A stretch of 58,118 nucleotides of DNA from a virus: IMG/VR virus record IMGVR_UViG_3300023272_000003, positions 1 to 58,118 of that record. One strand, given 5' to 3'. Under the pieces are notes generated by a model. That model did no database searches. It was not told the origin of the DNA and saw only the letters and a program-made list of their open reading frames with translations. Shown piece after piece: positions 1,260-58,118 of this stretch. A program made the translations under genes and the position numbers. Within the stretch, counting starts at the first letter, position 1; each line of letters opens with the position of its first letter.

Positions 1260-1288
1260 ATTGTATCATATTTGTACAAGAGTGTCAA
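1260..1288 (-). promoter_or_regulatory. Repressor promoter, leaderless
   Basis: Minus strand: TTGACA (1288-1283), 17-base spacer, TACAAT (1265-1260). Seven bases further on is the ATG at 1253, so start of transcription and start of translation coincide. Confidence 0.8.
1262..1278. promoter_or_regulatory. Repressor operator, imperfect copy
   Basis: TGTATCATATTTGTACA keeps the left half-site of the perfect palindrome at 942-959 and has a changed right half. It overlaps the spacer and -10 box of the repressor promoter. A TTGTACA word also occurs at 1272-1278 and 1292-1298. Confidence 0.65.
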
Positions 1289-2971: not shown

Positions 2972-3001
2972 AAGGTATCACAAATACGGAGGCATTGACC
3001 A

Positions 3002-3283
3002 ATGACTACTCTTCACCCGTTTGCAATCAACACCCGCGTTGTCCGCACTACTTCCGGCGATTCCTGCGGATACATCGGCATCGTCATCGACCAGGACGGT
3101 GACAGGGTTCGCGTCCAGTGGGACGCTACACACTGCCACCCGAAGGGCGTCAAGACCTGGGTGAAGTTCACGGAGGTTGACTTCGAGACAGAGGTCCTGG
3201 TCGCGGACTGTAACACCCGCAGGGCTGAGTTTCTCCAGAGGCGGGCAGCGAAGTGGTCGAAGCCTCGTTTCAGTTATCGCTGA
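3002..3283 (+). CDS. Small protein, SH3-like fold suspected
   Basis: A 93-residue protein of unknown function, first gene of a rightward transcription unit with its own consensus promoter. Residues 20-60 alternate Gly-rich turns and beta strands (GYIGIVIDQDGDRVRVQW, then KTWVKFTEVDF), which is suggestive of a small SH3 or KOW-like barrel. Twenty bases around its ribosome site and start (2986-3005) are identical to those of the gene at 7459, although the proteins are unrelated. Confidence 0.75.
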   Translation: MTTLHPFAINTRVVRTTSGDSCGYIGIVIDQDGDRVRVQWDATHCHPKGVKTWVKFTEVDFETEVLVADCNTRRAEFLQRRAAKWSKPRFSYR

Positions 3284-3980: not shown

Positions 3981-4205
3981 ATGACTGTGTTAAAGATAAT
4001 CACTCCCGGCACAGACAGCCGGTATACCCTCACCAAGAGCGGGAAGTTTCTACGCTGCCGGTTGTGCGGGCGGCTGTTTTCTAACGAAACATTCAGCCCC
4101 AAGCACCTGCACTATACGATATACTGCTCTGTAACGGGCATAGGGAGTGGGAAGCCTATTGAGGCTATGCGCTCCGTTGGTGGGGCGAAGGAGAAGAGAT
4201 TATGA
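3981..4205 (+). CDS. Small putative zinc-binding protein
   Basis: A 74-residue protein with SD GGAGGATGA. CRLCGRLF followed by HLHYTIYC (about residues 26-50) gives a possible CxxC...H...C zinc site. The basic C-terminus overlaps the next gene by ATGA. The function is not recognised. Confidence 0.7.
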   Translation: MTVLKIITPGTDSRYTLTKSGKFLRCRLCGRLFSNETFSPKHLHYTIYCSVTGIGSGKPIEAMRSVGGAKEKRL

Positions 4206-4483
4206 CGATTGAACAACAGCAGCAGGAACGAGCAGAGCAGAAGGCAGCGGCGATCCAGGGGTTGCGACTTTTGTTGGCCGCACTGGAGACAGATGAGAAG
4301 AGTTACGCTGTGATGACCTGCCATGGAGCCGAAAAGGACGATTACGGCATAGAGTGGGCAAAGTGGGAACTTGGCGTCGTGTGGGGCAGCGCTGCGGCTC
4401 TGTATAAGGCAGAAGACGACGACCAGCCCGGCCACGACAAGGGCGGCAGCGGCGCATGGGGCGACCCGTTCAACCAGCGATAG
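4202..4483 (+). CDS. Small hypothetical protein
   Basis: A 93-residue protein coupled to the upstream gene by a four-base overlap. The Gln/Glu-rich first 25 residues are likely helical; the rest is acidic with several Trp. No motif is recognised. It is part of the rightward small-gene run 3981-4978. Confidence 0.7.
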   Translation: MTIEQQQQERAEQKAAAIQGLRLLLAALETDEKSYAVMTCHGAEKDDYGIEWAKWELGVVWGSAAALYKAEDDDQPGHDKGGSGAWGDPFNQR

Positions 4484-7428: not shown

Positions 7429-7458
7429 AGATATATCAAACAACGGAGGCATTGACCA

Positions 7459-7821
7459 ATGAGACAAGAGAGATGGTTCAGTAATTCGGTGTATAAAGCT
7501 ACCGAACTCTGCGCGTTATACGGAGTGACAAATGCGCTTGAAGAAGCCATAGCAAAAAAGGCACTTGGCGCCTGCTGTTTTTGGCAGAAAGTCATTGATA
7601 CACTGGAGACTATCCGCGACGGTGCAATCGAGATTCTGGATGCCGATGGGCACGAGGCACAGATATATGCAAGTTCCCTAAAAACTCGCCTTATAGACTA
7701 CCGGGGCGCCCTCATGATATACACAGTCACACAGGCAGAGTTCTGGAAATACTTCCAAAAACATATTGAGCAGTTCATGGCTTCAGCACATACCGAAGTG
7801 TCCGGGGAAATCAATAAGTAG
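7459..7821 (+). CDS. Hypothetical protein under a consensus promoter
   Basis: A 120-residue protein with SD ACGGAGG. Mostly helical, with GACCFWQKVIDTLETI and a C-terminal QAEFWKYFQKHIEQF. No domain is recognised. Its promoter is the strongest in the window by consensus, which suggests high early or lysogenic expression. Confidence 0.75.
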   Translation: MRQERWFSNSVYKATELCALYGVTNALEEAIAKKALGACCFWQKVIDTLETIRDGAIEILDADGHEAQIYASSLKTRLIDYRGALMIYTVTQAEFWKYFQKHIEQFMASAHTEVSGEINK

Positions 7822-7881: not shown

Positions 7882-8148
7882 TTGACGGACGACACCCGAC
7901 CCGACCGATTCACCGAGCACCAGCGCAAAGCCGGGAGCGCCAAGACAACACGCAAGGCGGCCTCTTCCCGGCAGAACCTGCCCAACGGAGGCGGCAGGCC
8001 CACCGGGGCACTGAACAAGAGCGTCAAGCCCTGCCTGGGGCCGGATCACTGTCCTGGCGGCGTACACCGGCAGCCTTGCCCGGTCTACCGCCGGGAAGCA
8101 GCGGCCCGCAGTCGGGAGGCGAAGCGCAAGGCAGCAGAGCAGCAGTGA
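7882..8148 (+). CDS. GGRP/Cys-His small basic protein, copy A
   Basis: An 88-residue basic protein read from TTG at 7882. It contains KAASSRQN, NGGGRPTG and a Cys/His segment (CLGPDHCPGG, then VHRQPCPVYRRE). The same order of an R-N-G/GGRP block, Lys-Pro, clustered Cys and His, and a basic tail is found at 8942, 9461 (minus strand) and 18368. Zinc binding and nucleic-acid contact are inferred from the Cys/His spacing and the charge. The weak ribosome site makes the exact start less certain. Confidence 0.7.
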   Translation: MTDDTRPDRFTEHQRKAGSAKTTRKAASSRQNLPNGGGRPTGALNKSVKPCLGPDHCPGGVHRQPCPVYRREAAARSREAKRKAAEQQ

Positions 8149-8248
8149 GGCAGCACGGGACATCCTGGCTGCCGCGCGTCGGGCCGTGGGGAGTTGCGCA
8201 CCGGTGTAGAGAGGGGGAAAATAGTTTGCAAATTGGTATGATACGATC

Positions 8249-8277
8249 TTGACATAACCTAACAAGTAGTGTATACT
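8249..8277 (+). promoter_or_regulatory. Sigma-70 type promoter
   Basis: TTGACA (8249-8254), 17-base spacer, TATACT (8272-8277), 46 bases before the gene at 8323. Confidence 0.85.
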
Positions 8278-8322
8278 ATGTATATCACAAACGCAGTTAC
8301 GAACTGCACAGGAGATAGGCAA

Positions 8323-8571
8323 ATGACGACCACAATGACCGAGCAGGAATTTGAGACGAAGCGCAAAGCAATCTGCAAAGAGTACGACGATCTGTTTGAG
8401 GCGACCAAGAAAGCTACATGGGACGCGAACTGGCCTGCTGGATGGCAAGAGACCGAGGACGCAATACTTGTACCCGCACAGGAAAAGCGCAAGGCGGCGC
8501 TTCGTGCGCTGGAAGAAGAATTTTACGGAACTGAGGACATCGTCGGTCTATTGTTCCCGGTAACTGAATAG
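8323..8571 (+). CDS. Small helical protein
   Basis: An 82-residue protein starting at the ATG after AGGAGATAGG. Strongly helical and charged (EQEFETKRKAICKEYDDL, QEKRKAALRALEEEF), ending in a hydrophobic DIVGLLFP. Possibly a small adaptor or inhibitor; not recognised. Confidence 0.75.
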   Translation: MTTTMTEQEFETKRKAICKEYDDLFEATKKATWDANWPAGWQETEDAILVPAQEKRKAALRALEEEFYGTEDIVGLLFPVTE

Positions 8572-8632
8572 GCCGCCTAACCCTCGTCCCATTGCCCCAC
8601 CGGAGGCTTCGTATCCGGTACAGGAGAATCCT

Positions 8633-8893
8633 TTGAAGCCATTCGACGAGATCACCAAAGCCATACTGCTTGATGACAACGACGAACCCATTTCGGCAGA
8701 GGAGAACAACCAGCAGGCTGTGAACGAACTAATGCGGGACACAGTTACCGAGTGGGAATACCGTATTGCTCGCCTTAAGGATGATCTGACGGAGGAGTGG
8801 CAGCCAGGACAACGAGAGCGCATAGAGGCCCTGCACGAAGCCTACAGGCTTGCGTGGGAGCATCTGAGGCAAAGCGGGGCAGCAGACCAATAA
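8633..8893 (+). CDS. Small helical protein, TTG start
   Basis: An 86-residue acidic helical protein read from TTG, nine bases after CAGGAGA. It contains EWEYRIARLKDDL and EALHEAYRLAWEHL. No motif is recognised. It follows the gene at 8323 with a 61-base gap and probably shares its transcript. Confidence 0.7.
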   Translation: MKPFDEITKAILLDDNDEPISAEENNQQAVNELMRDTVTEWEYRIARLKDDLTEEWQPGQRERIEALHEAYRLAWEHLRQSGAADQ

Positions 8894-8910
8894 TCATTTA
8901 ATCGAAAGGA

Positions 8911-8934
8911 GCCGGGACAGATCGCTGCCCCGGC
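8911..8934 (+). promoter_or_regulatory. Hairpin between ribosome site and start codon
   Basis: GCCGGGACAG and CTGCCCCGGC pair at nine of ten positions around ATCG. The stem begins immediately after AAAGGA (8905-8910) and ends seven bases before the ATG at 8942. Folding would bring the ribosome site to normal distance from the start. Confidence 0.5.
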
Positions 8935-8941
8935 ATTAAAC

Positions 8942-9214
8942 ATGATGGAGCAAACAGAAGAGACACCAGAACAGAAGCGGCAGCGGATCAGCGCCGCCAG
9001 GGCAGCCGCAGGTAGTGTACGTAGCGAGCGCAAGGCTGCTGCGGTACGCCAAAACGGACAAAAAGGCGGCAGGCCAGTCGGCACGCAAAAGCCGTTGGAG
9101 GAGATCGCCTGCACGTGCAAGCAAGACCCGCACCATTGGTCATGCCGCCGGGAGCAGACCAGGGCGAAGAGGCAGAGCAGAGCGCGCCTGAAAAAAAGTT
9201 CGGCGGAAATCTGA
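8942..9214 (+). CDS. GGRP/Cys-His small basic protein, copy B
   Basis: A 90-residue basic protein. RKAAAVRQNGQKGGRPVG is followed by KPLEEIACTCKQDPHHWSCRRE: a CxC, five or six residues, H, and C pattern, then an Arg/Lys-rich tail. This copy and the one at 9461 share KP-EEI-CTC and are clearly paralogous. The start lies downstream of a hairpin that separates it from the ribosome site. Confidence 0.75.
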   Translation: MMEQTEETPEQKRQRISAARAAAGSVRSERKAAAVRQNGQKGGRPVGTQKPLEEIACTCKQDPHHWSCRREQTRAKRQSRARLKKSSAEI

Positions 9215-9241
9215 AAATAGTCTAACGATCCCCCACCGCAA

Positions 9242-9271
9242 GGCCCCTTTCGTTTTGTTTCGGGAGGGGCC
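9242..9271. terminator. Hairpin after copy B gene
   Basis: GGCCCCT (9242-9248) pairs with AGGGGCC (9265-9271) around a T-rich loop. It probably ends the rightward transcript. Copies of CCTTTCGTTTTG occur here and about 50 bases further on. Confidence 0.5.
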
Positions 9272-9420
9272 GGAAGCGTAGACGCCTGATGCAGATTCCT
9301 TTCGTTTTGCCCCGAATGCTCCCCAAAGCGATAACCGCACAACAACCGTCGTGTAAGTGCCCGTAAAATGGCGTTTTTGGCTCTGTTTCGCCAACATATG
9401 ACCAGTTATCGGACGTTTGG

Positions 9421-9451
9421 CAATCAGGAGGCGGAACCTGCCTCCTGATTG
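9421..9451. terminator. 12-bp hairpin between converging genes
   Basis: CAATCAGGAGGC and its exact complement, with a 7-base loop, ten bases beyond the stop of the leftward gene at 9461. No T-run follows on either strand. A terminator or transcript-end structure for both directions. Confidence 0.65.
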
Positions 9452-9460
9452 GACAGAACC

Positions 9461-9688
9461 TCACCGTTTGCCGTCTGCGCGTCGTTGGCGCTGGTAGAGC
9501 GTGCGAGAGATCCGACAAGAAGCCTTGTGAGGCGGCACTCCGTTCCCACAGGTGCAGGGGATCTCTTCGACCGGCTTGACGCCACCAGTACCCTTCCATC
9601 CACCGAGCTTGCCATTTTCCCGCGATGCCGCCGCCTTCTTGTCTGTTTTTATGCTGCCCAGAGCGGCCCCTAATTCCTTCGGTGTCAA
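9461..9688 (-). CDS. GGRP/Cys-His small basic protein, copy C
   Basis: A 75-residue basic protein on the opposite strand to its relatives. The TTG at 9688 is chosen because AGGAGG lies seven bases upstream and because the promoter at 9716-9745 rules out a longer reading. KKAAASRENGKLGGWKG replaces the usual GGRP; KPVEEIPCTCGNG, then PHKASC completes the Cys/His set. It has its own promoter with an operator copy and faces the HNH gene at 9807, forming a divergent pair. Confidence 0.75.
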   Translation of the reverse strand: MTPKELGAALGSIKTDKKAAASRENGKLGGWKGTGGVKPVEEIPCTCGNGVPPHKASCRISRTLYQRQRRADGKR

Positions 9689-9715
9689 ATGCTCCTCCTG
9701 CTTGTTCTTCAAATG

Positions 9716-9745
9716 ATTGTACTGCCTAACGATAGGGCACGTCAA
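9716..9745 (-). promoter_or_regulatory. Leftward promoter with operator in spacer
   Basis: Minus strand: TTGACG (9745-9740), 18 bases, TACAAT (9721-9716). The spacer holds the repeat at 9724-9737. The -35 lies in CTACTGTTGAC, also found at the promoter at 17867. Confidence 0.7.
9724..9737. repeat. Operator-like repeat GCCTAACGATAGGG, copy 1
   Basis: The core CTAACGATAG is nearly self-complementary. An identical 14-base copy lies at 9757-9770 and the core also occurs at 17717-17726. All three are in gene-free regulatory intervals; this one is inside the leftward promoter. Confidence 0.65.
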
Positions 9746-9748
9746 CAG

Positions 9749-9778
9749 TAGACACGGCCTAACGATAGGGGGTATAAT
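9749..9778 (+). promoter_or_regulatory. Rightward promoter with operator in spacer
   Basis: TAGACA (9749-9754), 18 bases, TATAAT (9773-9778), driving the HNH gene at 9807. The spacer holds the second operator-like repeat. Confidence 0.65.
9757..9770. repeat. Operator-like repeat GCCTAACGATAGGG, copy 2
   Basis: Exact copy of 9724-9737, 33 bases away in the same orientation. Each of the two divergent promoters carries one copy in its spacer, which fits coordinate repression. Confidence 0.65.
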
Positions 9779-9806
9779 ATGGTAACACATTGATAAGGAG
9801 CCGCCG

Positions 9807-10604
9807 GTGGAAGATCAACCTATTAAGCCTTACCAGAAATCATTCCCATGTCATAAAAATCGCTATGGTGCTATATGCCCATCCTGTTCCTATTCGATGT
9901 ACCTGCCGAAATTTTATCAAGGTGGATATATTTGTGGTAGTTGCTACAGCACGATAAAGAAGACAGAGAGGCAGCAAAAACACCAGGAGCGCAAACAAGA
10001 GCGTGAGGCTGAGCGCCGTCGTATTGAGGCAAGTCGGCAATCTGCATTACAACGCAAGATGGAGAAGGAACAGGAATCTGCTCGTTATCGGGAGGAGAGG
10101 GAAAACAGGCGGGAAGCAAATCGAATAGCACGACAGAGGTATAGAGAAATGTCTGCCACTGAGAGGCTGCGCGTAAGCGAGATTACCGCCGCTAAAAAGT
10201 TAGAAGAATTGCAATCAAAGCCAATCAACCAGCCAAAGCCCGAACCCACTTTGCTTGAAACATGGGCGCGTAAATGGGCTGTCCAAAGCAAGATAAAACG
10301 GCGGAATGAAAAGACTCCTATTCCATCAGGCTCGAAGCCGATAACCCCGGAATACCTGATGGAACTATGGGAGAAGCAAAAAGGTACATGTGCCCTTTCG
10401 GGTCGTCCTATGTCTCTTGTGAGGCCAGAAGGTGAAGGGACTTTTCAATCTTCTTTGGTCTCCGTAGACAGAATAGATAGCATGGTGGGCTACTGCCAAG
10501 AGAATATTCAACTGGTATGTTTAGCCGCCAACGTAATGAAAGCCAATACAGGCCTAACCGACTTCAAAGAGTGGTGCCGAAGCATAGCAAAGAGCGGGGA
10601 ATAA
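9807..10604 (+). CDS. HNH-type (DRID) endonuclease with zinc ribbon
   Basis: A 265-residue protein read from GTG, six bases after AAGGAG. An N-terminal zinc ribbon (CPSCSY...CGSC, residues 24-46) is followed by a long, highly charged coiled coil (about 50-155). The C-terminal nuclease-like domain holds CALSGRPMSL, then SVDRIDSMVGYCQENIQLVC and NVMK. This is the DRID-GY-N-LVC signature of the HNH family variants seen in phage homing enzymes, with Asp-Arg in place of the usual leading His. Own promoter and divergent neighbour suggest a free-standing selfish or DNA-processing gene. Confidence 0.75.
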   Translation: MEDQPIKPYQKSFPCHKNRYGAICPSCSYSMYLPKFYQGGYICGSCYSTIKKTERQQKHQERKQEREAERRRIEASRQSALQRKMEKEQESARYREERENRREANRIARQRYREMSATERLRVSEITAAKKLEELQSKPINQPKPEPTLLETWARKWAVQSKIKRRNEKTPIPSGSKPITPEYLMELWEKQKGTCALSGRPMSLVRPEGEGTFQSSLVSVDRIDSMVGYCQENIQLVCLAANVMKANTGLTDFKEWCRSIAKSGE

Positions 10605-10711
10605 ATTTTGCCCGGTGGCCGGAAGGCTGAAAAATGTTGGAGGTAAAGTAAATATTTTACGTTGCGATGTGGTATACTATAGAGGAGAGAACAAAAACAG
10701 GAGGGGCAAAA

Positions 10712-11299
10712 ATGGAACAGTTAAGCGAGTTGCCGAAAGGCGTTTGGGGCTGTGCTATGTGCGATATGGTATGCGCCGGGGAACTTGCGGTGGAAGCGTT
10801 CGGGGAAGTCGCGCGCGCAAAGGATTCAGGACTACCGCTGTTTACTTATATGTACCGGCGATTCGGGCCACCGTGGAGCGGTTCAGACGATCATAAAGAG
10901 GTTGCGTCTTACAAACTCACTACCTCCGACCCTCGCATATTTCTGGATGTTTCCATTAAGGGCTATGCGTTGGATTTCTGTTTCCGCTTCCTTATTACGA
11001 AGGAACTCCAAGACGAGTATTCTGCCTACATGGATCACAGGATATCCCAGGTCGGCCACAGGGAAGGCAGAGAGCCTAGAGCATGGCGCGAAGGCTCCCC
11101 GATTCGACAGCACGTCAACGAAGTGCTCATAGAGGCTATGAAAGAGCTTCTAAGGCCCGTGTGGGTTCGTGACATCCCTATGAACATCTTAGGACTTGTG
11201 GAAGAGGAGGACGCAGAGGACTCCGTCGAACCGTCCATCTATGCAGGCTACGGAGTACCCAAAGAGGCTATGGACGCACGCATTAAGGAGTTTGCCTGA
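10712..11299 (+). CDS. Hypothetical protein
   Basis: A 195-residue protein, starting at the ATG after AGGAGGGG. It contains CAMCDMVC near the N-terminus, a central region with alternating hydrophobic residues (PRIFLDVSIKGYALDFCFRF) and a very acidic C-terminus (VEEEDAEDSVEPS). No family is recognised. Its stop overlaps the next start by one base. Confidence 0.75.
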   Translation: MEQLSELPKGVWGCAMCDMVCAGELAVEAFGEVARAKDSGLPLFTYMYRRFGPPWSGSDDHKEVASYKLTTSDPRIFLDVSIKGYALDFCFRFLITKELQDEYSAYMDHRISQVGHREGREPRAWREGSPIRQHVNEVLIEAMKELLRPVWVRDIPMNILGLVEEEDAEDSVEPSIYAGYGVPKEAMDARIKEFA

Positions 11300-11586
11300 T
11301 GTCTCCCAGTAAGGCGCAGGTAGGGCCGGAAATCAAATGCCGGTGCTGTGGCGGCACCGGCAAGATTCGCCTCCCTGTTGGGCAGTGGCGGGTCTACTCA
11401 CTGGTACAGCAGGGCTACCAGACCGCAAGCGAGATTTTCCAGCAGATCGAAGGACAGGAAGACATAGAGCAGAAGGCCGTCAGCATGAGGCTCAAGGCTC
11501 TGTTCGATGCAGGCCTGCTGATCCGCCACGACCAAAAGCGGGGCCGCCAATGGGTCTACGGGCTGGCGGCGAAGGAGGGGGAGTAA
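11299..11586 (+). CDS. Winged-helix protein with Cys knuckle
   Basis: A 95-residue protein. CRCCGGTGKIRLP (residues 14-26) is a glycine-rich Cys cluster of the DnaJ/zinc type. Residues 30-90 fit a winged helix (helix YQTASEIFQQI, recognition helix AVSMRLKALFDAGLL, wing HDQKRGRQWVYGL). Probably a DNA-binding regulator in this rightward operon. Confidence 0.7.
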   Translation: MSPSKAQVGPEIKCRCCGGTGKIRLPVGQWRVYSLVQQGYQTASEIFQQIEGQEDIEQKAVSMRLKALFDAGLLIRHDQKRGRQWVYGLAAKEGE

Positions 11587-11587
11587 G

Positions 11588-11851
11588 ATGACAACCAGGA
11601 CAGATTTACCGCGGTTCGAGTGCTCGTTGGTGGGGCAGGACGACACGCTGTGCCCAATCTTTGCAGTAGATGAGCAACAGGCGGCAGAGGATTTTGTTTG
11701 CAATTGGGAGTGGCGCGCGTGCGAATTCACTGTTGCGTCAGGACAGAGGACCGTTCGGGTGCGGGTGAATGGCCGTGTGTTCGAGGTTAGCGGGGAAGCG
11801 GTTCCGAGTTACCGGGCGCGGCCTCTGTCGGCGCAAGAGCAGGAGGCTTAG
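11588..11851 (+). CDS. Small hypothetical protein
   Basis: An 87-residue protein with an ATG two bases after the upstream stop and the ribosome site GGAGGGGGAG. Beta-rich in the middle (FTVASGQRTVRVRVNGRVFEV). Resembles small phage proteins that are translated in series; function unknown. Confidence 0.7.
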   Translation: MTTRTDLPRFECSLVGQDDTLCPIFAVDEQQAAEDFVCNWEWRACEFTVASGQRTVRVRVNGRVFEVSGEAVPSYRARPLSAQEQEA

Positions 11852-11853
11852 AG

Positions 11854-11997
11854 ATGGCAAGCGAAACCGAGTGTCAGTGGCTGGAGCGCCGCGCAGCTGA
11901 GATTGAGGCCGAGGCCGCGTGGGTGGCCCGGATGCAGGAGCAGGAATTCCTGGCGGGGCTGTGGTCGGAGGTGTTTCCAGAGGCGGAGGAGGGGTAG
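11854..11997 (+). CDS. Very small helical protein
   Basis: A 47-residue frame between two tightly packed genes: ATG two bases after the previous stop, SD AGGAGG, and the next ATG one base after its stop. Nearly all residues suit one amphipathic helix (ERRAAEIEAEAAWVARMQEQ), with an acidic end. The packing makes it likely to be expressed. Confidence 0.65.
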   Translation: MASETECQWLERRAAEIEAEAAWVARMQEQEFLAGLWSEVFPEAEEG

Positions 11998-11998
11998 G

Positions 11999-12718
11999 AT
12001 GAGTATTGAGACGACAGAGCGCAAACCCCGGTTGCAGTGGGGTGATGGGCAGTATTCAGTCTACCAAGCCTCTGAGGTGCCTGCATACGAAATGACGGTC
12101 TTCTACCGGGCAGGCGAATGGCGGTTGGAGATCAGAGGAGCCGACAAGGGCAACTATCCTGATCGCACGTCGGCCCAGATCGCGGCAGAGTCCTGGCTGC
12201 GGGAGGAGATCCGGCGCGTGGGGGCGCTTTTGGGCGAAGGAGAGGAGGGTGAGAAGCCTCAGGCGTTCAAGGATGCTTTTAAGTTCAACATCCTTGTCAG
12301 AGGTGAGGCGCAGGCCTGCTTCCGTGCCTACAATGCCGAGGAGGATGAAGACGGGCAGAAAGTTTCCGGCGAAGAACTTCACGGCATCAGTGCAGATGAT
12401 CCTGACGACGAATTCAGCCAGTATTTCGATTGTGCGATGGAAGGGCTAGGTGTCTACCAAGGCTGGATGCGCTTCGAGTTTGCAGGCGAAAAACTCTGGA
12501 CTATCACAGAATATCAGGCGATGTCGGCACTCTCGGAGGAGGAATTGAAGGCTCTTGCACTCTTTACGCAGGGACAATGGTCGGACGGTATCGGCGAGGG
12601 ATTCGAGCAAAAGCGATGCCTCAACTTCAGCGGCGGCAGCTTCTCTGTTTCCCCTTATGCGGACAGGCAGAACCTTACCATTAGTCAGTGCGGAGTAACA
12701 TGGGAGATCACGCCATGA
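11999..12718 (+). CDS. Hypothetical protein
   Basis: A 239-residue protein from the ATG after GGAGGAGGGG. Mixed alpha/beta with an acidic middle (EEDEDGQKVSGEE), no membrane segment, no known motif. The start of the next gene overlaps its stop (ATGA). It is the largest unknown of the rightward operon. Confidence 0.75.
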   Translation: MSIETTERKPRLQWGDGQYSVYQASEVPAYEMTVFYRAGEWRLEIRGADKGNYPDRTSAQIAAESWLREEIRRVGALLGEGEEGEKPQAFKDAFKFNILVRGEAQACFRAYNAEEDEDGQKVSGEELHGISADDPDDEFSQYFDCAMEGLGVYQGWMRFEFAGEKLWTITEYQAMSALSEEELKALALFTQGQWSDGIGEGFEQKRCLNFSGGSFSVSPYADRQNLTISQCGVTWEITP

Positions 12719-13068
12719 GCAACGAGACGACGGCCCCCACGCGGCCCACCGACCAGGAGATCAACGCCCTCTGCGCCACGCTGTGCGGCTACCAAGTATT
12801 TGCTGACGACGCGCCCATTATGTTACAGGCGATGTCCTGCATACGGCAGAGCGAATGCCCTGACTTCTGCGGCAGTCGGCAACCATCGGCTGAGTGGCTT
12901 CTGCCGATGGTTGCCGAAGACGACAGGGCAGAATTTGTGCGGTATTTGTGGCGATCAGTGGACGTGCGGGACGTGTGGGCCTGCATGACATCCACGCCGC
13001 GCCAGCAAGTAGAGGCAGTGCTGCGGACATTGGGCAAGTGGCCTGCGGAGTGGGAGGAGAGCAGATGA
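12715..13068 (+). CDS. Hypothetical protein
   Basis: A 117-residue acidic protein coupled by ATGA on both sides. It contains INALCATLCGYQV and SVDVRDVWACM; four to five Cys but no regular zinc spacing. No family is recognised. Confidence 0.7.
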   Translation: MSNETTAPTRPTDQEINALCATLCGYQVFADDAPIMLQAMSCIRQSECPDFCGSRQPSAEWLLPMVAEDDRAEFVRYLWRSVDVRDVWACMTSTPRQQVEAVLRTLGKWPAEWEESR

Positions 13069-13664
13069 GTGAGGAGAGAGCGCCGTACGGGGAGCAGGAG
13101 GCACGCAAGCATCAGGTCTTTATGATTTCAGGTGATGCATATTACGGGCGGGAGATTGAGTGTGCCTGCGGTCAAGATTTCAACGATGAAGGCAGATTCA
13201 ACACCCACCAGCAAGAAGAGATAGACGCCTTGATTCAGCAAGCCGAGCAGCGCGGGCGGGAGGCACTGCTTTCAGAGATGGTTGAGGCGCATTTGCAGAA
13301 GTCCGTCGATGTACCAGACGATGAAAGGGATTGGGTACAGCAGGTTATGCGCCTGCTGTACGTCAACTTTGACGGTTTTATTACTGCTGCCGTCAAAGGG
13401 CAAAAGGCGTCTTTTGAGCGCGGACGGGAGGCGGGGTTGCGGGAGGCGCTGGAGTCTGTACGGCAGTTAGGGATTGAGATGGAGGATCTCAGGAAGGTTT
13501 CCCCTTTCACCTCCGACGCATGGTATGAGTATAACGCCAAGGTGAACACTGCTAAGGGAGCATATCAGCGCATCACCGCCCTGCTGCCCGCCACACTGCC
13601 CGGTGCGGAGACGGAGGAGAGACGAAGTCTACGAAAAAATAGAGCAACTGAAGAAACTCATTGA
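13065..13664 (+). CDS. Protein with N-terminal Cys-Cys-His finger
   Basis: A 199-residue protein. Residues 30-50 (ECACGQDFNDEGRFNTHQQEE) look like a half zinc finger of CxC...H type, common in small phage proteins. The remainder is helical with an acidic repeat of heptads. The next gene starts inside its 3' end. Nucleic-acid or protein binding is a guess. Confidence 0.7.
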   Translation: MSEERAPYGEQEARKHQVFMISGDAYYGREIECACGQDFNDEGRFNTHQQEEIDALIQQAEQRGREALLSEMVEAHLQKSVDVPDDERDWVQQVMRLLYVNFDGFITAAVKGQKASFERGREAGLREALESVRQLGIEMEDLRKVSPFTSDAWYEYNAKVNTAKGAYQRITALLPATLPGAETEERRSLRKNRATEETH

Positions 13665-13878
13665 AAGCCTGAGCGGGAAGCCTTGGGCCGAAATCGAATT
13701 CCTGTACGTGAATCACTACATGGACGATCCGCGCTGGTCTTCGACGAGCATTTACCCGCCCGGCAAGATCCACACGGGTACGACGATCACGATAGAATGC
13801 ACGACCACCTACGCGGAAGGCGAGTTGCCTCCAATGCGAGATGACACTGCCCCTCACGGCACCGCAGGCAGCTCGTAG
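13603..13878 (+). CDS. Small hypothetical protein at the start of the interleaved region
   Basis: A 91-residue frame from GTG at 13603, overlapping the previous gene by 62 bases. N-terminal helix DEVYEKIEQLKKLIESL, then a beta-rich part. Its 3' end overlaps that of the leftward endolysin gene by 25 bases. No ribosome site is evident before the GTG, so the start is uncertain. Confidence 0.55.
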   Translation: MRRRRRDEVYEKIEQLKKLIESLSGKPWAEIEFLYVNHYMDDPRWSSTSIYPPGKIHTGTTITIECTTTYAEGELPPMRDDTAPHGTAGSS

Positions 13879-14291
13879 CAGTCCGTGATGATGTTGCGAC
13901 GGTTCTGCCAGGGCTGAGAGTTGACGCCCTTGCCTGAGCTGCACTCGTAGGTGCGGCCCATGTAGACCAGGACCACATGCCCGATGCCGCCCTGTGGCCG
14001 CTTGAAGCCGATAAAGAGCCGGTGTGGATCGTGGGCGGCAAATTCCACATCGGAGAACTTCGCGAGTTTATGGAAGCCCTGCTGCGCGCACCATTCGTTC
14101 TGGGTGGCGCTCCCGTCCGGCAGGCGCAACCCGGCCCGATCGAGGCACCACCGGACCCAGCCAGAACAGTCTGCTGTCGTGAAAGTGCTGCTGTCCGCGC
14201 CGAGGGTGGGCTTGGAACCGTAGAGGTACCGCACCCGCCCGGCGGTGTGGTCGTAGCACGTTTTGAACATCGAGATAGACGCTTTAGACAT
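13854..14291 (-). CDS. NlpC/P60-like endolysin
   Basis: A 145-residue protein. TADCSGWVRWCL (Cys42) and GGIGHVVLVYMG (His105) form the catalytic Cys and His of the NlpC/P60 or CHAP-like papain fold, which cuts peptide bonds or amide links in peptidoglycan. No signal peptide is present, so release would need the holin encoded at 14446. The ATG at 14291 has SD AAGGAG, which lies in the same 13 bases that hold the ribosome site of the divergent gene at 14307. An older in-frame ATG further upstream lacks a ribosome site. Confidence 0.8.
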   Translation of the reverse strand: MSKASISMFKTCYDHTAGRVRYLYGSKPTLGADSSTFTTADCSGWVRWCLDRAGLRLPDGSATQNEWCAQQGFHKLAKFSDVEFAAHDPHRLFIGFKRPQGGIGHVVLVYMGRTYECSSGKGVNSQPWQNRRNIITDCYELPAVP

Positions 14292-14306
14292 CCGAGGAGG
14301 CTCCTT

Positions 14307-14477
14307 ATGCTTATACCAATTCCCCCAAAGGAAGAATGGCCGGAACATATTCGAGAGATCAATGAGCGGTGGGATCGTTGGATCGCCGCCGCCGATGCCC
14401 GCAAGGCGAGAGAGGCAGAAGAGGCAGCAAAAGCAGAAAGCGCTCCTACCCCTGCTCCGTCGGCGGATCGGGAATAG
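14307..14477 (+). CDS. Small rightward protein between lysis genes
   Basis: A 56-residue protein with SD GAGGAGG six bases before the ATG. Pro-rich start (LIPIPPKEEW), a charged helix (REINERWDRWIAAADARKAREAEEAAK) described here only in part, and an Ala/Pro tail. Its start lies 15 bases from that of the leftward endolysin, and its end overlaps the holin gene by 32 bases. The good ribosome site supports it. Confidence 0.6.
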   Translation: MLIPIPPKEEWPEHIREINERWDRWIAAADARKAREAEEAAKAESAPTPAPSADRE

Positions 14478-14718
14478 CCTGCTGTGCCGCCCTGCGCCGC
14501 GTGTCCTGCCGCTGCTGGTTCATCGTGTCGAGGTCAGGCGCAATGCGGCTCTGGAGGGCCTTGAGGCCAACGGACACGCCGGTAATCAGGGCGGCGTTCC
14601 GGCTGTGGGACTCGCTGTAGGCGGCAAACCCACCCAGAAGGCCGGAGATCAGGACATCCAGCGCGATGCGGAAGACGGCCTGCCGGCTGATGGGCGGGTC
14701 GGGTAGGCGTGAGTTCAA
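14446..14718 (-). CDS. Holin-like membrane protein
   Basis: A 90-residue protein read from TTG with SD AGGAG. One or two membrane segments (about residues 16-36, FRIALDVLISGLLGGFAAY, and 43-55, ALITGVSVGLKAL) and a charged C-terminus rich in Arg and Gln fit a small class II holin. It sits one gene upstream of the endolysin on the same strand, with a rightward gene between them. Confidence 0.7.
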   Translation of the reverse strand: MNSRLPDPPISRQAVFRIALDVLISGLLGGFAAYSESHSRNAALITGVSVGLKALQSRIAPDLDTMNQQRQDTRRRAAQQAIPDPPTEQG

Positions 14719-14745
14719 GGGGCGAGGCTCCTAGAGAGGGTTGAT

Positions 14746-15144
14746 ATGATGTGTCAGACGATAGAACAGGCGACGCGCCGTCTTGCAGAGTGCGAAGAGT
14801 TGGAGCGCATTGCGGCACTGAACTTTGCAGAGACGCAACGCAGAACACAACAAGCGAGAGAGAATCTGCGCTTATTGCAGGCGAAGCATAAACTCGAACA
14901 GGCCAAGTCTGCCGGGCAGAGCGATCTACCTATTTGCCGTCAGTGCTTTCAGCATGCACTTATCAGCATCATAGTAGTCGAAATGGATAGACAAGGGCGC
15001 ATTGACCAAATGACCAAAGAACAGATGCTCAACGGTGAATGGTACTGCGCCGCTTGCAGATGGCGCGGACGGCCTCACCCGCGCTTGACCGAAGAGGCAG
15101 AGACACTTACGGCCCCACCGGAGGCGTCAGACTCGCCGCGCTGA
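14746..15144 (+). CDS. Coiled-coil protein with Cys motifs
   Basis: A 132-residue protein with SD GAGAGGG. Residues 5-60 form a long charged helix (RRLAECEELERIAALNF). ICRQCFQHA and WYCAACRWRG give two CxxC pairs, a likely zinc ribbon. It starts 28 bases from the holin start and its end overlaps the leftward gene 15107-15502 by 38 bases. Confidence 0.7.
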   Translation: MMCQTIEQATRRLAECEELERIAALNFAETQRRTQQARENLRLLQAKHKLEQAKSAGQSDLPICRQCFQHALISIIVVEMDRQGRIDQMTKEQMLNGEWYCAACRWRGRPHPRLTEEAETLTAPPEASDSPR

Positions 15145-15502
15145 TAATGATCGGCTCTGCGATGGCGCAGTTGACCTCCCGCGCTCCGGTGGCGGTTCCG
15201 GTCGGCTGAGACAGCAGGGCAGAGTTCAGGGCAGTATTGAGCGTGGAGAGCGCCGCCGCGAGGGTCGCGTTCGTGGCCGCCTCTGACTGCACGGCTGTGT
15301 TCGACAGCACCGCATCCAGCGCCAGACACATAGGCCGGAACTGTGCCGAGCCGCTTGGGCTGTCGTTCAGAATGTCGATTATGTTCGTGGGGGCGGTGTC
15401 GCGGCGGGAACGTTTCGACGCCGCAGCGGGGCGCAGGAGGGCAAGGAAGCCCACCAGGGAAGCGAACAGGGCAGAACGGCGTGTAAGGGTGTTGCGTGAC
15501 AA
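15107..15502 (-). CDS. Probable exported protein in lysis region
   Basis: A 131-residue protein read from TTG, nine bases after AGGAG. The N-terminus (TRRSALFASLVGFLALLRPAAA) has twin Arg, a hydrophobic core and an AxA-like site, a Sec or Tat signal. The mature part is Ala/Thr/Ser-rich with a long run of small residues. An outer-layer or spanin-like role is possible but not shown by sequence. Confidence 0.65.
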   Translation of the reverse strand: MSRNTLTRRSALFASLVGFLALLRPAAASKRSRRDTAPTNIIDILNDSPSGSAQFRPMCLALDAVLSNTAVQSEAATNATLAAALSTLNTALNSALLSQPTGTATGAREVNCAIAEPIIISAASLTPPVGP

Positions 15503-15532
15503 TGCGTGTTTCTCCTATCGAAAGGGGTTGTG

Positions 15533-15805
15533 ATGAACTGGAAAAGGTTTAGCGACGAGATGCCGCCGCCGTGCGAAGTAAACGAAGTGCAGTGGCTGGT
15601 GACATACTCCGAAGAGTCGGGCTATCGGCTGTCGAAGCGCAAGGGCGATACCGTCAAGATTGGTGAGTATGACTACTTCCTCGATGACGAAGAGGATATT
15701 GCAGGCGTCTGGTGGTGCCTCCTGACCAATCCCGAAACAGGACAGCCCGCAATGGGAGGAGGCCGCCGAATCGATTGGCAAGTGCCAGAAGGAACCACCC
15801 CATGA
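15533..15805 (+). CDS. Small rightward hypothetical protein
   Basis: A 90-residue protein with SD GAAAGGGG. It has the look of small phage proteins with repeated W/Y and acidic turns (WLVTYSEESGYRLSKRKGD, GEYDYFLDDEED). Coupled to the next gene by ATGA. Its start is 31 bases from that of the leftward exported protein. Confidence 0.75.
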   Translation: MNWKRFSDEMPPPCEVNEVQWLVTYSEESGYRLSKRKGDTVKIGEYDYFLDDEEDIAGVWWCLLTNPETGQPAMGGGRRIDWQVPEGTTP

Positions 15806-16110
15806 GCAAAATGACGCCGGAAGAGCGGGCGCGCCGAATCGAGTTTGACTATGGCGTTTCGGAGGAAGACTTTGCGCGAGTCGCCGCCGCGATCCGTGAG
15901 GCCGTAGCGGAGGCGTATGAGACATGCGCTAATATTGCCCGGAAAGAAAGATGGGACTTTTGCGCCCAAAACATGACAACACGGGAAGGATCGATGTTCG
16001 AGCAGGCATGGGCAGAAGCCGCAAAATCTATAGAAGAGGATATTTGCGCCCTTCAAGACGCCCTCACCGCCGCCCCGTTACCTCCCGCACAGGACCGCCC
16101 AGAAGGCTGA
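15802..16110 (+). CDS. Small helical hypothetical protein
   Basis: A 102-residue protein starting in an ATGA overlap. Helical throughout (FARVAAAIREAVAEAYE, EQAWAEAAKSIEEDICAL). Its 3' end overlaps that of the leftward membrane protein 16064-16246 by 47 bases. No family is recognised. Confidence 0.7.
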   Translation: MSKMTPEERARRIEFDYGVSEEDFARVAAAIREAVAEAYETCANIARKERWDFCAQNMTTREGSMFEQAWAEAAKSIEEDICALQDALTAAPLPPAQDRPEG

Positions 16111-16246
16111 TAACGAGGTCTAGACGGTCATACAGGCCCCGGAGGACAAGCCCGCAGAGGATCGCCCCCAGGACAATACCCAACACCATGCGGGTTATCT
16201 CCAGGCTGAGTCGCTCCTGCTCCTCCGGTGGGGCAGGGGCGCTCAA
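16064..16246 (-). CDS. Small membrane protein of lysis cassette
   Basis: A 60-residue protein with one membrane segment at about residues 20-37 (MVLGIVLGAILCGLVLRG) and a second short hydrophobic stretch (LVISLLGG). It overlaps the upstream gene by ATGA. Size and topology suit a holin, antiholin or lysis regulator. Confidence 0.7.
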   Translation of the reverse strand: MSAPAPPEEQERLSLEITRMVLGIVLGAILCGLVLRGLYDRLDLVISLLGGPVREVTGRR

Positions 16247-16737
16247 TGGCCGACCTGCCGCGAGAACGCCAGCAGGACGCTCACCACGACGCCCAGGACC
16301 GCGAAGGCACTGACGGCGATACCCCAGAGGGAGGAGGCCCCCACGCCCCTTCCCTCTGTTTTGTCCATGCGGGACGAATGGGTCTGGAGAGTGTCCTTGA
16401 CGGCATCAAACTCTGATTTCGTGGCAAAGTTCTTCTCCCGGTCGTACATGGCAGCACGCCACTCGTTGTTCGCCTCCCGCCAACGCTCGATTTCTACAGC
16501 GCTCTTGTCAATGGCTTTCTCGCTCGACTTCAGGGCCGCCTCTACGGCCTTCTCTGCCGCCTGGAGCTGCGAGTGGTGCAGTACTGCCATGTCGGCAATC
16601 CGCTGCTCAAACAGGCGCTCAAGGGCCTCTATGCGGAGGATAAACTGTTTCTCAAGTTCCGCCACGACACGGCGGGTATAGACGTGTTCCGTCTGGGGAG
16701 TCCACCCCGCGAGGTGTTCCGGCAATTCATCTGGCAT
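16243..16737 (-). CDS. Coiled-coil protein with C-terminal membrane anchor
   Basis: A 164-residue protein. Residues 20-115 are a long coiled coil (LEKQFILRIEALERLFEQRI, AEKAVEAALKSSEKAI) and residues about 136-158 a membrane segment (LWGIAVSAFAVLGVVVSVLL). Tail-anchored coiled-coil proteins of this form are common beside phage holins. Overlaps its upstream neighbour by 11 bases. Confidence 0.75.
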   Translation of the reverse strand: MPDELPEHLAGWTPQTEHVYTRRVVAELEKQFILRIEALERLFEQRIADMAVLHHSQLQAAEKAVEAALKSSEKAIDKSAVEIERWREANNEWRAAMYDREKNFATKSEFDAVKDTLQTHSSRMDKTEGRGVGASSLWGIAVSAFAVLGVVVSVLLAFSRQVGH

Positions 16738-16900
16738 GGTGTTCCCCTACGTAAACAAACTGTTGAGGTCTGAGGTGCAACTCCAGATGGTCCCGTACGT
16801 TGAGCGTCTTTCCAAACCATGTGGCTGCCATCATCAGGCACAGAAGACATAGGAGAAAAAGGGCCAAGAAAAGACCATTGTAACTCTCTTTAGCGTTCAT
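16727..16900 (-). CDS. Small membrane protein
   Basis: A 57-residue protein with SD AGGAGA before the ATG at 16900. One strong membrane segment (about residues 9-30, GLFLALFLLCLLCLMMAATW) and a short His-rich tail. It overlaps the genes on both sides. Candidate holin or holin inhibitor. Confidence 0.7.
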   Translation of the reverse strand: MNAKESYNGLFLALFLLCLLCLMMAATWFGKTLNVRDHLELHLRPQQFVYVGEHHAR

Positions 16901-17408
16901 CAGGTCTCCTATTACGCCGGAACTCATCCACGGCATTTTCCAGACGATCAGCGGTCTTGCTGAGACTATCGGCAGCGACTTTCTGCCTCGCGATTTCGAT
17001 CTGTGACTGTTCCACCGTCTGACCGAGCTCCTTGTTGCTCGTTATGGCGGCATCGACCTTTTTATCAATCCCATGCACGTACTGCGTGAGGTGGTCGATG
17101 CGGGCGTTCATCAGCGCCTGATAAGCGATGTTCTGCTCGTGCCACTGGGTACGCTCTGTCCGCTGGTCCCACTCGAATTTCGCGAAGGGGATCACCAACA
17201 CGGACAGAATCAGGGTAGCAACCTGCCACGTGTTGCCGCGAAACCACTTCTCGATAGAGCGATTGGCCTGCTGCAATGCCGTGAGGGGCCGACGCCTGCC
17301 GTGTGGGTGATCCTCTGGCTCTTCTTCTTCAGGCTCTTGCGGCTCTTCGTCATCCCGCTCCTCATCCGGTTCCGTCGGCTCCTCTTCGGCACGATGATGG
17401 TTGGTCAT
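16890..17408 (-). CDS. Acidic membrane-anchored coiled-coil protein
   Basis: A 172-residue protein in three parts: about 35 mainly acidic residues rich in Glu, Asp and Pro; a membrane segment at 61-77 (WQVATLILSVLVIPFAK); then a coiled coil to the C-terminus (HGIDKKVDAAITSNKELG). Together with its neighbours it forms a run of five membrane proteins. Perhaps a spanin-like or membrane-organising factor. Confidence 0.7.
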   Translation of the reverse strand: MTNHHRAEEEPTEPDEERDDEEPQEPEEEEPEDHPHGRRRPLTALQQANRSIEKWFRGNTWQVATLILSVLVIPFAKFEWDQRTERTQWHEQNIAYQALMNARIDHLTQYVHGIDKKVDAAITSNKELGQTVEQSQIEIARQKVAADSLSKTADRLENAVDEFRRNRRPDER

Positions 17409-17647
17409 TTCGGCACCTGTCCTTTCTCGTCGCGGAGTAAGGGAATCAATGTCTCTAACTTGGCTTCAATGCGCCCTGATGCAATCAAGGTCGCCTGCTG
17501 GCTGCTCTGGATGTCCTTGCACATCTTTTCGGTGCGGTCGTTCTGGAGGCTGTTATTCAGGCACCAGAGGCAGAAAAACAACACAATGAGGATAACCTGC
17601 GAACGCGTGACAGGTTGCTTTCCCCAACTGGCGGAACCCTGTGTCAA
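17405..17647 (-). CDS. Small membrane protein, first gene of leftward membrane cassette
   Basis: An 80-residue protein read from TTG at 17647. One membrane segment at 18-34 (VILIVLFFCLWCLNNSL), then a helix with KMCKDIQSSQQATLI. The ribosome site GGGAGAAG lies in a hairpin (17654-17671). Coupled to the next gene by ATGA. Confidence 0.65.
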   Translation of the reverse strand: MTQGSASWGKQPVTRSQVILIVLFFCLWCLNNSLQNDRTEKMCKDIQSSQQATLIASGRIEAKLETLIPLLRDEKGQVPK

Positions 17648-17653
17648 AATACT

Positions 17654-17671
17654 TCTCCCGCCGTCGGGAGG
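17654..17671 (-). promoter_or_regulatory. Hairpin masking a ribosome site
   Basis: CTCCCG and CGGGAG pair (6 bp plus a G-T) around four bases. On the minus strand the 3' arm is the GGGAG of the ribosome site for the TTG at 17647, so folding would hide it. Confidence 0.5.
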
Positions 17672-17716
17672 AATCCGGGCTATCTGCCGCGAACACCCTG
17701 CCCGGACAGCTCGCTA

Positions 17717-17726
17717 CTAACGATAG
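17717..17726. repeat. Operator core CTAACGATAG, copy 3
   Basis: Same ten bases as the core of the repeats at 9724-9737 and 9757-9770, again in an interval between divergent genes. Confidence 0.5.
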
Positions 17727-17781
17727 CTGGCCTGTCTGCCGGGGAAGGCGCTTTGATCGCTAACCCCGGCACTGAATCACC

Positions 17782-17810
17782 AGGGGCCGGGACAGATTGT
17801 CCCGGCCCCT
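17782..17810. terminator. 13-bp GC-rich hairpin
   Basis: AGGGGCCGGGACA and its exact complement around a GAT loop. No T-run follows on either strand. It may end leftward or rightward read-through between the divergent units, or be a protein-binding site. It resembles the hairpin at 8911-8934 in sequence (GCCGGGACAG). Confidence 0.6.
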
Positions 17811-17866
17811 CCCTTTGCGTCACGAAACTATTTTCAAAATTCCCTCCTGTTTGGCCTCATCTACTG

Positions 17867-17895
17867 TTGACATTATAGCGGCTATAGTGTACAAT
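17867..17895 (+). promoter_or_regulatory. Sigma-70 type promoter
   Basis: TTGACA (17867-17872), 17 bases, TACAAT (17890-17895), driving 17954. It shares CTACTGTTGAC at the -35 with the leftward promoter at 9716-9745. Confidence 0.85.
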
Positions 17896-17953
17896 AAGGG
17901 TGTAAGATCCAATAAGGAACTTACTCATCTACCCGACAGGAGAAGAGACGAAA

Positions 17954-18241
17954 ATGATTATCACCATCTGCGAATTCAAGGGCAACTTTCTCGGCAACAG
18001 CGACGGCGAGGGTATTGATCTGGAGAAGTCCATTGCGAACTATCAGACACAGGTAGAGGCCCGGATTGAGCGCATAGAACCGGGGACGTCTGTAGCGTGG
18101 GACTTCCGCAACGGTGAGGGCGATCCTGACCGATATTTTTCCGCCGAGGGTTTTGACGACGAAGACAGCATTCAGGGCGACGTCAACCATATCCGGGAGC
18201 AGGTTTTTGCGGAGGGCACCTTCTGGGCGTTCACGAACTAG
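17954..18241 (+). CDS. Small acidic hypothetical protein
   Basis: A 95-residue protein with SD AGGAGAAGAG. Beta-rich and acidic (GEGDPDRYFSAEGFDDEDS). Own promoter and own terminator (18255-18285). Not recognised; the isolated unit suggests expression independent of the main operons. Confidence 0.8.
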   Translation: MIITICEFKGNFLGNSDGEGIDLEKSIANYQTQVEARIERIEPGTSVAWDFRNGEGDPDRYFSAEGFDDEDSIQGDVNHIREQVFAEGTFWAFTN

Positions 18242-18254
18242 CCCAAAAGAAACA

Positions 18255-18285
18255 GGGCGCAGAGTGGTCGAATCACTCTGCGCCC
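18255..18285 (+). terminator. 12-bp hairpin terminator
   Basis: GGGCGCAGAGTG and its exact complement around seven bases, 14 bases after the stop at 18241. Strong GC stem, no T-run. Confidence 0.7.
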
Positions 18286-18367
18286 TCCCCGACAGGGGTA
18301 AAGCATTGTACCACCACAGGCTTACCGGATGCCCGTTCCCGGCACATTTTTACCAGAGAGGCAAGGC

Positions 18368-18589
18368 ATGACGAACCCACAGACCCTAAGCGACGTTATG
18401 CGCGAACTCGCGCAACGCTCTACGCCCGAAACTCGCGCGGCCCGAAGTCAGAATGCCGCCACGGCACGTGCCGCCCGGAAGCCACCGAAGCCATGCACGT
18501 GCGGACAATCGCCCCACGTCAGCAGATGTCCTGTCTATTGGCGAGAGCGGCAGGCAGAGCGGCGGCGGAAGTCGGCTAAACCTTCCTAA
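18368..18589 (+). CDS. GGRP/Cys-His small basic protein, copy D
   Basis: A 73-residue basic protein with ribosome site AGAGGCAAGG. Here the GGRP block is reduced (ARAARKPPKP) but CTCGQSPHVSRCPVYWRER keeps CxC, five residues, H, three residues, C, and the CPVY of copy A, then a basic tail. It is downstream of the promoter that shares its -35 motif with copy C. Its end overlaps the first leftward structural gene by 14 bases. Confidence 0.75.
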   Translation: MTNPQTLSDVMRELAQRSTPETRAARSQNAATARAARKPPKPCTCGQSPHVSRCPVYWRERQAERRRKSAKPS

Positions 18590-48008: not shown

Positions 48009-48206
48009 CTAAGCCTTGCGGTCGTCGATGAGATCCGCAACGGTGCAGATCATCCTGCCCTGTTCCAAGTCCAAGACCTCCATGCTCGGATAGTCTATCG
48101 CCGCCATATATCTACCGGGCTGGGTAGAACCACCATCAGAAGGCGCGCCTTCAACCTCCATAGAAAAGAACACCTCAGACCTTTTAGGAATATCTAGCCA
48201 AGCCAT
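48009..48206 (-). CDS. Small protein, PKRSEVFF/CTVADLIDD family (copy 2)
   Basis: A 65-residue protein. IPKRSEVFF at the N-terminus and MICTVADLIDDRK at the end match the product of 18-227; the middle differs. The two copies sit at opposite parts of the same leftward gene set. No motif of known function. Confidence 0.75.
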   Translation of the reverse strand: MAWLDIPKRSEVFFSMEVEGAPSDGGSTQPGRYMAAIDYPSMEVLDLEQGRMICTVADLIDDRKA

Positions 48207-57232: not shown

Positions 57233-57552
57233 AGCGTCTCCCCCTCCTCTCCGAACATGGCCACGCCAGGATTTCGGCTCATCTCTGAGAGCATGGTATC
57301 CACAAGGCGCTCGGCATCAAGGCGCTTGTAAATCAGATCTCCCGCCTCTGCGAAGGTCTCCCATGTGGGCTTCCTGAAGGCTTGCTGTGCGGCCCGCATC
57401 TCCCGTACAGCCTCCCGAAACGTCACCGCGTTATCCGCCGCCGCGAACAGCCGGGCGTCTGCCTCCACCATGCCCCGCGCCGCCTGCCGATCACCTTCCC
57501 ACACCGACCAGCCGAATGTGGAGCCGTCGTTCTGCGATCTGAATCTGCTCAT
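57229..57552 (-). CDS. Hypothetical protein
   Basis: A 107-residue protein, N-terminal SRFRSQNDGSTFGWSVWEGD then helical with acidic end. ATGA overlaps on both sides. Not recognised. Confidence 0.7.
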   Translation of the reverse strand: MSRFRSQNDGSTFGWSVWEGDRQAARGMVEADARLFAAADNAVTFREAVREMRAAQQAFRKPTWETFAEAGDLIYKRLDAERLVDTMLSEMSRNPGVAMFGEEGETL

Positions 57553-57791
57553 GCCGCCACCTCCTCAGCCTTAACGCGAAGATCCTTGCCGCAGAACGGG
57601 CAGAAACTTGCAAATAGGCTCGGCGTTTTTCGATTCCACTTGGTGTTGATTTTGTGAGTCGGAATCGCCATGACAGTGAAGAACTCGCCCTGCATCGTCA
57701 TAGCCCTCGACAACGACAACTGCGCGTTATGCGGCTCAAGTTGAGTACCAATCGCCTCCCAGCACTCACAGGGAATTGTCTTGCTTGTCAT
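57549..57791 (-). CDS. Small Cys-containing protein
   Basis: An 80-residue protein with CECWEAIG at the start and FCPFCGKDL near the end, two Cys pairs that form one zinc site in a common phage protein type. ATGA coupling on both sides. Confidence 0.75.
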   Translation of the reverse strand: MTSKTIPCECWEAIGTQLEPHNAQLSLSRAMTMQGEFFTVMAIPTHKINTKWNRKTPSLFASFCPFCGKDLRVKAEEVAA

Positions 57792-58108
57792 GCCGCCACC
57801 GCCATTTCTTCCACCACACGCCCCACGGCCTCATAGCGCAGCGTAAACGTAATGGGCTCAGGATCGTCGCGGTCGTCCAGCGCCTGCTCTGCCTCAGCCT
57901 GCCGCAACCACGCCACCAACTCCGGGGGCGTCTCGCACATCGCCGTGCTGCCATCACCCCAGAACATCGAAACATTCAGGTCACTCACCGATACCTTGGC
58001 GAATTCACCCATCGTGCAGGCAATGACCGCCTCCACGACCGTTCGCACCGCGTACTGCCCCAGAAGCGACGCCGGGACGTGGAACGTTTTGCTGACTATC
58101 CTGCTCAT
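57788..58108 (-). CDS. Hypothetical protein at the contig joint
   Basis: A 106-residue protein. Alpha/beta (ASLLGQYAVRTVVEAVIAC, PITFTLRYEAVG), acidic. Its start codon lies in the end repeat and overlaps the stop of the gene at 18-227 when the ends are joined. That shows the leftward operon is continuous across the origin. Confidence 0.75.
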   Translation of the reverse strand: MSRIVSKTFHVPASLLGQYAVRTVVEAVIACTMGEFAKVSVSDLNVSMFWGDGSTAMCETPPELVAWLRQAEAEQALDDRDDPEPITFTLRYEAVGRVVEEMAVAA

Positions 58109-58118
58109 CGGCTCTCCT
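58088..58118. repeat. Terminal direct repeat, copy 2
   Basis: Second copy of the 31-base end repeat. Position 58108, the start codon of the gene ending at 57788, corresponds to position 21 of the first copy. Confidence 0.9.

Follow-up and report, generated by a model that had tools for sequence, protein, structure and literature searches.

The virus record IMGVR_UViG_3300023272_000003, analysed here over its whole length of 58,118 bases (the window), encodes four small proteins, named P1 to P4, which form a family that has no entry in the libraries searched (Pfam, NCBIfam, and PHROGs). Since the first and last 31 bases of the record are an identical direct repeat (1-31 and 58088-58118), the window is probably a complete genome, and its large terminase was closest to those of tailed phages. 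All four open reading frames (ORFs) named in a preliminary description of the window were present in the ORF list where it had placed them. P1 (7882-8148, plus strand, 88 amino acids) starts with TTG about 9 nucleotides 3' of a ribosome-site-like AAAGG and carries the N block SRQNLPNGGGRPTG and the C block Cx5Cx4Hx3C. P2 (8942-9214, plus, 90 amino acids) starts with ATG, with the N block VRQNGQKGGRPVG and the C block CxCx4Hx3C. P3 (9461-9688, minus, 75 amino acids) has a TTG start with AGGAGG upstream, the N block SRENGKLGGWKG, and the C block CxCx6Hx3C. The ORF of P4 (18368-18589, plus, 73 amino acids) begins at 18329 and holds an ATG at 18368, where a ribosome-site-like sequence is present, and its C block reads CxCx4Hx3CPVY. 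The common block that had been proposed for the four proteins was upheld in part. Lys-Pro, the arrangement C..C-x4/6-H-x3-C, and a basic tail were kept in 4 of 4, and all were strongly basic (16-21 Lys plus Arg, 5-10 Asp plus Glu). However, the R-N-G...GGRP block had an exact copy in P2 only (P1 reads RQN-LPNG-GGRP), GGRP itself being present in P1 and P2, altered to GGWK in P3 (RENGKLGGWK), and missing from the N half of P4 (SQNAATARAARK). CxC was found in P2, P3, and P4, with Cx5C instead in P1.

Single-, two-, and three-member profiles were run against a six-frame set of 866 ORF pieces from the window. P2 and P3 recovered each other at expect values (E) of 5e-15 and 1e-14, P1 recovered P3 at 3e-5, and, with E between 1.2e-4 and 1e-13, every pair profile regained whichever of P1-P3 it had been built without. 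The recovery of P4 was weak (E 0.0027 from P1+P3, 0.45 from P1+P2, and absent from the best 8 matches for P2+P3). Local alignment scores were compared with those of 500 residue shuffles per pair as a chance control, and the real score was reached by 0 of 500 for P1-P2, P1-P3, P1-P4, P2-P3, and P3-P4, and by 2 of 500 for P2-P4. A profile search of 17 terminase-relative records, many of them short fragments, found one family match, in G009, which also looks complete because of its 127-base terminal repeat. The G009 protein was identical to P4 at 34 of 63 residues, and its match to P1 was equalled by 0 of 500 shuffles. By these comparisons P1, P2, and P3 are clearly homologous, and P4 belongs to the family chiefly through its C-terminal half; the G009 homologue ties it in by matching both P4 and P1. 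Profiles from two copies, the check named in the preliminary description, thus regained all of P1-P3 but P4 weakly, a gap mended by the outside homologue. Within the window, a four-member profile with a cut-off of E 10 matched P1-P4 and nothing else. A weak hit on the minus strand at 57552-57830, obtained with P3 alone (E 0.003), was considered as a fifth copy and rejected, as it has no block of this kind. Identity at codon positions 1, 2, and 3 was 0.53, 0.68, and 0.25 between P2 and P3, and 0.57, 0.73, and 0.30 between P4 and the G009 gene. Since positions 1 and 2 were conserved over position 3, selection on the P1-P4 genes is supported, in agreement with the selected function suggested earlier.

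On sequence comparison the family is made of two portable modules, an N block and a zinc-knuckle-like C block. These modules are separable, which fits the proteins better than the single GGRP/CxC-H-C family described at first, and P4 is without the GGRP part. In another phage record, G026, a 211-amino-acid HNH endonuclease ends in the two modules combined (L056, 1480-2115, minus; E 4e-14 with the A1 profile; Pfam HNH 1.9e-11), whose N half is without GGRP, like that of P4. The whole module is common to this enzyme and the window family, whereas the HNH domain belongs to the G026 enzyme, P1-P4 having no HNH match in Pfam or PHROGs. In G009 the module follows, in the same frame, about 105 residues of another, non-HNH protein, although it could also be translated from an internal ATG. 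A 91-amino-acid phage protein (L013 in G008, 4024-4299) carries two C blocks in tandem (CTC-PH-C). The pattern CTCGxxPHxxxCP was found at 6 viral loci and at 7 loci in bacterial genomes. We claim no homology for the viral loci other than L013, where the motif lies in unlike proteins, although these scored E 0.025 to 2e-5 with the A1 profile, and the bacterial loci were chance-like, with short or doubtful frames, except perhaps L052. A second pattern matched three loci (G009, G026, and L054), the last by chance. Since the pattern loci, G026 included, were found with Cys and His fixed, the independent evidence for conservation of these residues comes from P1-P4 and the profile-found G009 protein. 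The whole-module profile gave no match in 350 genomes of the G030 phylum or 346 of the G029 phylum, in searches that scored part of the first-look candidates and had no positive control.

The N block (consensus KAAxxRENGKKGGRP) was found at 25 viral loci, a count that includes the near-identical sets L070/L071 and L075-L077 as well as L064, the record of L002. By our reading of these loci, it made up most of a protein of 42-55 amino acids at 9, lay near the N-terminus at 3, was internal at 1, and formed the C-terminal tail of unlike proteins at 12. At L074 it ends an HNH protein (PHROGs 1e-23). The N-block profile matched 16 of 398 genomes of one phylum, at 18 places; in two other phyla, searched with no positive control, it matched none of 249 and none of 251 genomes. 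Sixteen of the 18 proteins were tested for PF10387 (DUF2442), with L096 and L100 left out, and all 16 contained this domain with the N block as their C-terminal tail. P1-P3 are themselves rows of the alignment (A6) whose profile finds the DUF2442 tails. Plasmids searched with the L003 tail gave no match, nor did the strings GKKGGRP, KGGRPRK, and RENGKKGG in the literature searched. DUF2442 is described as the antitoxin of DhiTA, a system with activity in both Dickeya dadantii and E. coli, and as cutting its own promoter activity by about half (PMC8198452). A Thermus DUF2442 protein is given as 92 amino acids (PMC12724237); as this is short for domain plus tail, the tail is probably not carried by all DUF2442 proteins. 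Compared with the DUF2442 proteins, DhiA (the antitoxin of this type II system) among them, whose long forms have a tail equal to the N block, the window proteins are without the DUF2442 domain, have no DUF4160 partner identified, and add the CxC-H-C block.

The two modules were also compared with known motifs. An AT-hook has a basic-GRP core, and in most N blocks, as in P1 and P2, GGRP has basic residues nearby. The N block, however, has a conserved KAAxxRxN helix before GGRP, and the AT-hook Pfam family gave no match in P1-P4 or the N-block proteins tested. Many N blocks have a spacing like that of the KGG stress-induced repeat (PF10685), for which no match was listed for any N-block protein tested, P1-P4 included. 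The C block is like a CCHC zinc knuckle in its Cys-Cys-His-Cys order, short spacing, and basic surroundings. The knuckle spacing is CX2CX4HX4C, whereas P2 and P4 have CX1CX4HX3C, P3 has CX1CX6HX3C, and P1 has CX5CX4HX3C. Pfam at E 10 returned 0 families for 4 of 4 window proteins, hence no PF10387 domain and no knuckle. In tblastn searches of 50,697 phage records, P2, P3, and the G009 protein had no match and P4 had three chance-level rows (P1 was not among the queries). An AlphaFold2 model of P2 (30 rows) placed helices at residues 9-25, 29-40, and 69-89, with a predicted local distance difference test (pLDDT) score of 84.9.

P1-P3 lie between an O-like replication initiation gene upstream of P1 (6218-7369, plus; phrog_391 6.4e-6, phrog_270 9e-6) and a conserved gene on the far side (11299-11586, plus), which has a 56% identical homologue in G009. 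The single G009 family gene sits between homologues of the same two flanking genes, so the window seems to hold extra copies at the ancestral place, with P4 elsewhere. P4 is the one nearest in sequence to the single G009 copy. Sigma-70-like promoters were found at 7400 (plus), 8249 (plus), 9745 (minus), and 17867 (plus), among 18 in the window versus 8.1 expected in shuffles, which supports the separate transcription units proposed before; the last (17867-17895, TTGACA-N17-TACAAT) is 5' of 17954-18241 and P4. Divergent from P3 is the gene of a free-standing HNH/endonuclease VII-like protein of 265 amino acids (9807-10604, plus; phrog_3322 endonuclease 1.7e-12, phrog_1035 endonuclease VII 4.8e-11, phrog_3118 HNH 1.7e-10). 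The two divergent promoters nearly touch (9716-9778), with that of P3 at 9745-9716 on the minus strand and that of the HNH gene at 9749-9778 on the plus strand. An exact 14-mer, GCCTAACGATAGGG, has one copy per promoter spacer, at 9724 and at 9757, and CCTAnnnnTAGG is confined to these two places within the window. The pair looks like one regulated unit with operator-like repeats.

Several side observations were also made. The 8-mer CTAACGAT has four copies in the window (9222, 9726, 9759, and 17717), all near P genes or their promoters; a relation to the 14-base repeat of those near P2 (9222) and P4 (17717) is suggestive only. A leader of about 20 bases is common to two genes (2986-3005 and 7443-7462), directly 3' of two strong promoters. 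Strong promoter-like sites at 940-969 and 1260-1288 (minus) and TTGTAC/TGATAC-type repeats lie around a small helix-turn-helix-like gene (993-1253), a region that is perhaps a regulatory switch. Two small minus-strand ORFs (18-230 and 48009-48206) each match one G009 ORF (2579-2812) and may be another duplicated pair.

We propose, with moderate confidence, that P1-P4 are small nucleic-acid-binding accessory proteins of two portable modules, likely regulators or targeting partners. This reading is drawn from the HNH fusion in G026, the HNH tail at L074, the DUF2442 tails (with the damping, by one DUF2442 antitoxin, of its own promoter), the O-like initiator locus, the operator-like repeats, the basic charge, the homology, and the selection. 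In this model, DNA would be contacted by the N block, in which a short helix precedes Asn-Gly-x-x-Gly-Gly-Arg-Pro (AT-hook-like in P1 and P2). The C block (C..C-x4/6-H-x3-C) would bind nucleic acid as well as a single zinc, with further charge contacts made by the Arg/Lys helix that follows it. Acting in trans in the early/replication region, P1-P4 would either regulate locally or help to target enzymes such as HNH nucleases, and P3 would probably act with, or control, the divergent HNH gene. Zinc-dependent DNA or RNA binding, as raised in the preliminary description, is still the best reading, now joined by the HNH fusion, the DUF2442 tail, and the replication-initiator neighbour. The sequences themselves show the homology, the selection on the coding regions, the fusions, and the arrangement of locus and promoters, whereas zinc, binding, and regulation are what we infer for these proteins.

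Other results weigh against this proposal. P1-P4 had no match above chance in Pfam, NCBIfam, or PHROGs. Searches of PDB sequences gave none for the N block and one chance-level match for the whole module, and the fold search gave no PDB match and no meaningful BFVD match. The P2 model had a predicted template modelling (pTM) score of 0.46, and zinc is outside what AlphaFold2 can show. The Cys/His spacing is not that of the classical knuckle, nor is it constant across P1-P4. The 12-base core of the 14-base repeat is absent from G009. Moreover, the window and G026 HNH proteins were unlike by BLAST (E 1.5), and the fusion evidence is therefore not directly transferable to the P3-HNH pair.

The fusion can also be taken to mean that P1-P4 derive from mobile HNH nucleases as remnants or satellites, that is, DNA-targeting domains spread by homing and left after loss of the nuclease. 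Besides the module fused to the G026 enzyme, a free-standing HNH gene adjoins P3, and the comparison with G009 gave no homologue of that gene at E 1e-4. We nevertheless consider this origin unlikely, as the ORFs are intact with ribosome sites, conservation is higher at codon positions 1 and 2 than at position 3, and the N-terminal region to which the G009 copy is fused in frame is a different, non-HNH one. The likeness of the C block to a CCHC knuckle would suit RNA-binding regulators of zinc-knuckle type, which might control early phage mRNAs or serve as antiterminators, as would the basic flanks, the strong early promoters, and a hairpin between the Shine-Dalgarno sequence and the ATG of P2. 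In this leader (8905-8941, plus), AAAGGAG and the hairpin (8911-8934) are followed by 7 nucleotides to the ATG, with a fold of -16.6 kcal/mol, a z of -2.4, and an equally good value in 4 of 200 shuffles. If folded, it would set the Shine-Dalgarno sequence 7-8 nucleotides from the start codon, and it is a possible hairpin-spaced ribosome site. However, the N block accompanies DNA-acting proteins (HNH and DUF2442) and no RNA target was identified, making an RNA regulator improbable. A role of P1-P4 as host inhibitors or anti-defence proteins would fit small proteins in several copies with separate promoters, but it appears quite doubtful, given that no inhibitor homology was found in Pfam, NCBIfam, or PHROGs (PADLOC was not searched) and that a single copy suffices in the complete-looking G009; for the diversifying host inhibitors suggested earlier we found no evidence here. 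That stand-alone phage N-block proteins mimic the DUF2442 antitoxin tail and bind operators or DUF4160 toxins of host DhiTA-type systems to blunt host defence, with the four zinc-block copies of the window as a diversified mimic set, seems very improbable.

Small basic DNA-binding phage proteins are of a known kind, and the most interesting part of the proposed nucleic-acid-binding family is the tail common to antitoxin-family proteins and phage proteins. If the proposal is true, the module carried by antitoxin-family proteins, phage nucleases, and free phage mini-proteins would serve generally as a nucleic-acid-binding tag, one missing from the libraries searched, and many unnamed phage proteins of 40-100 amino acids would gain a testable role. 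The divergent unit of P3 and the HNH gene provides a defined place for testing the tag.

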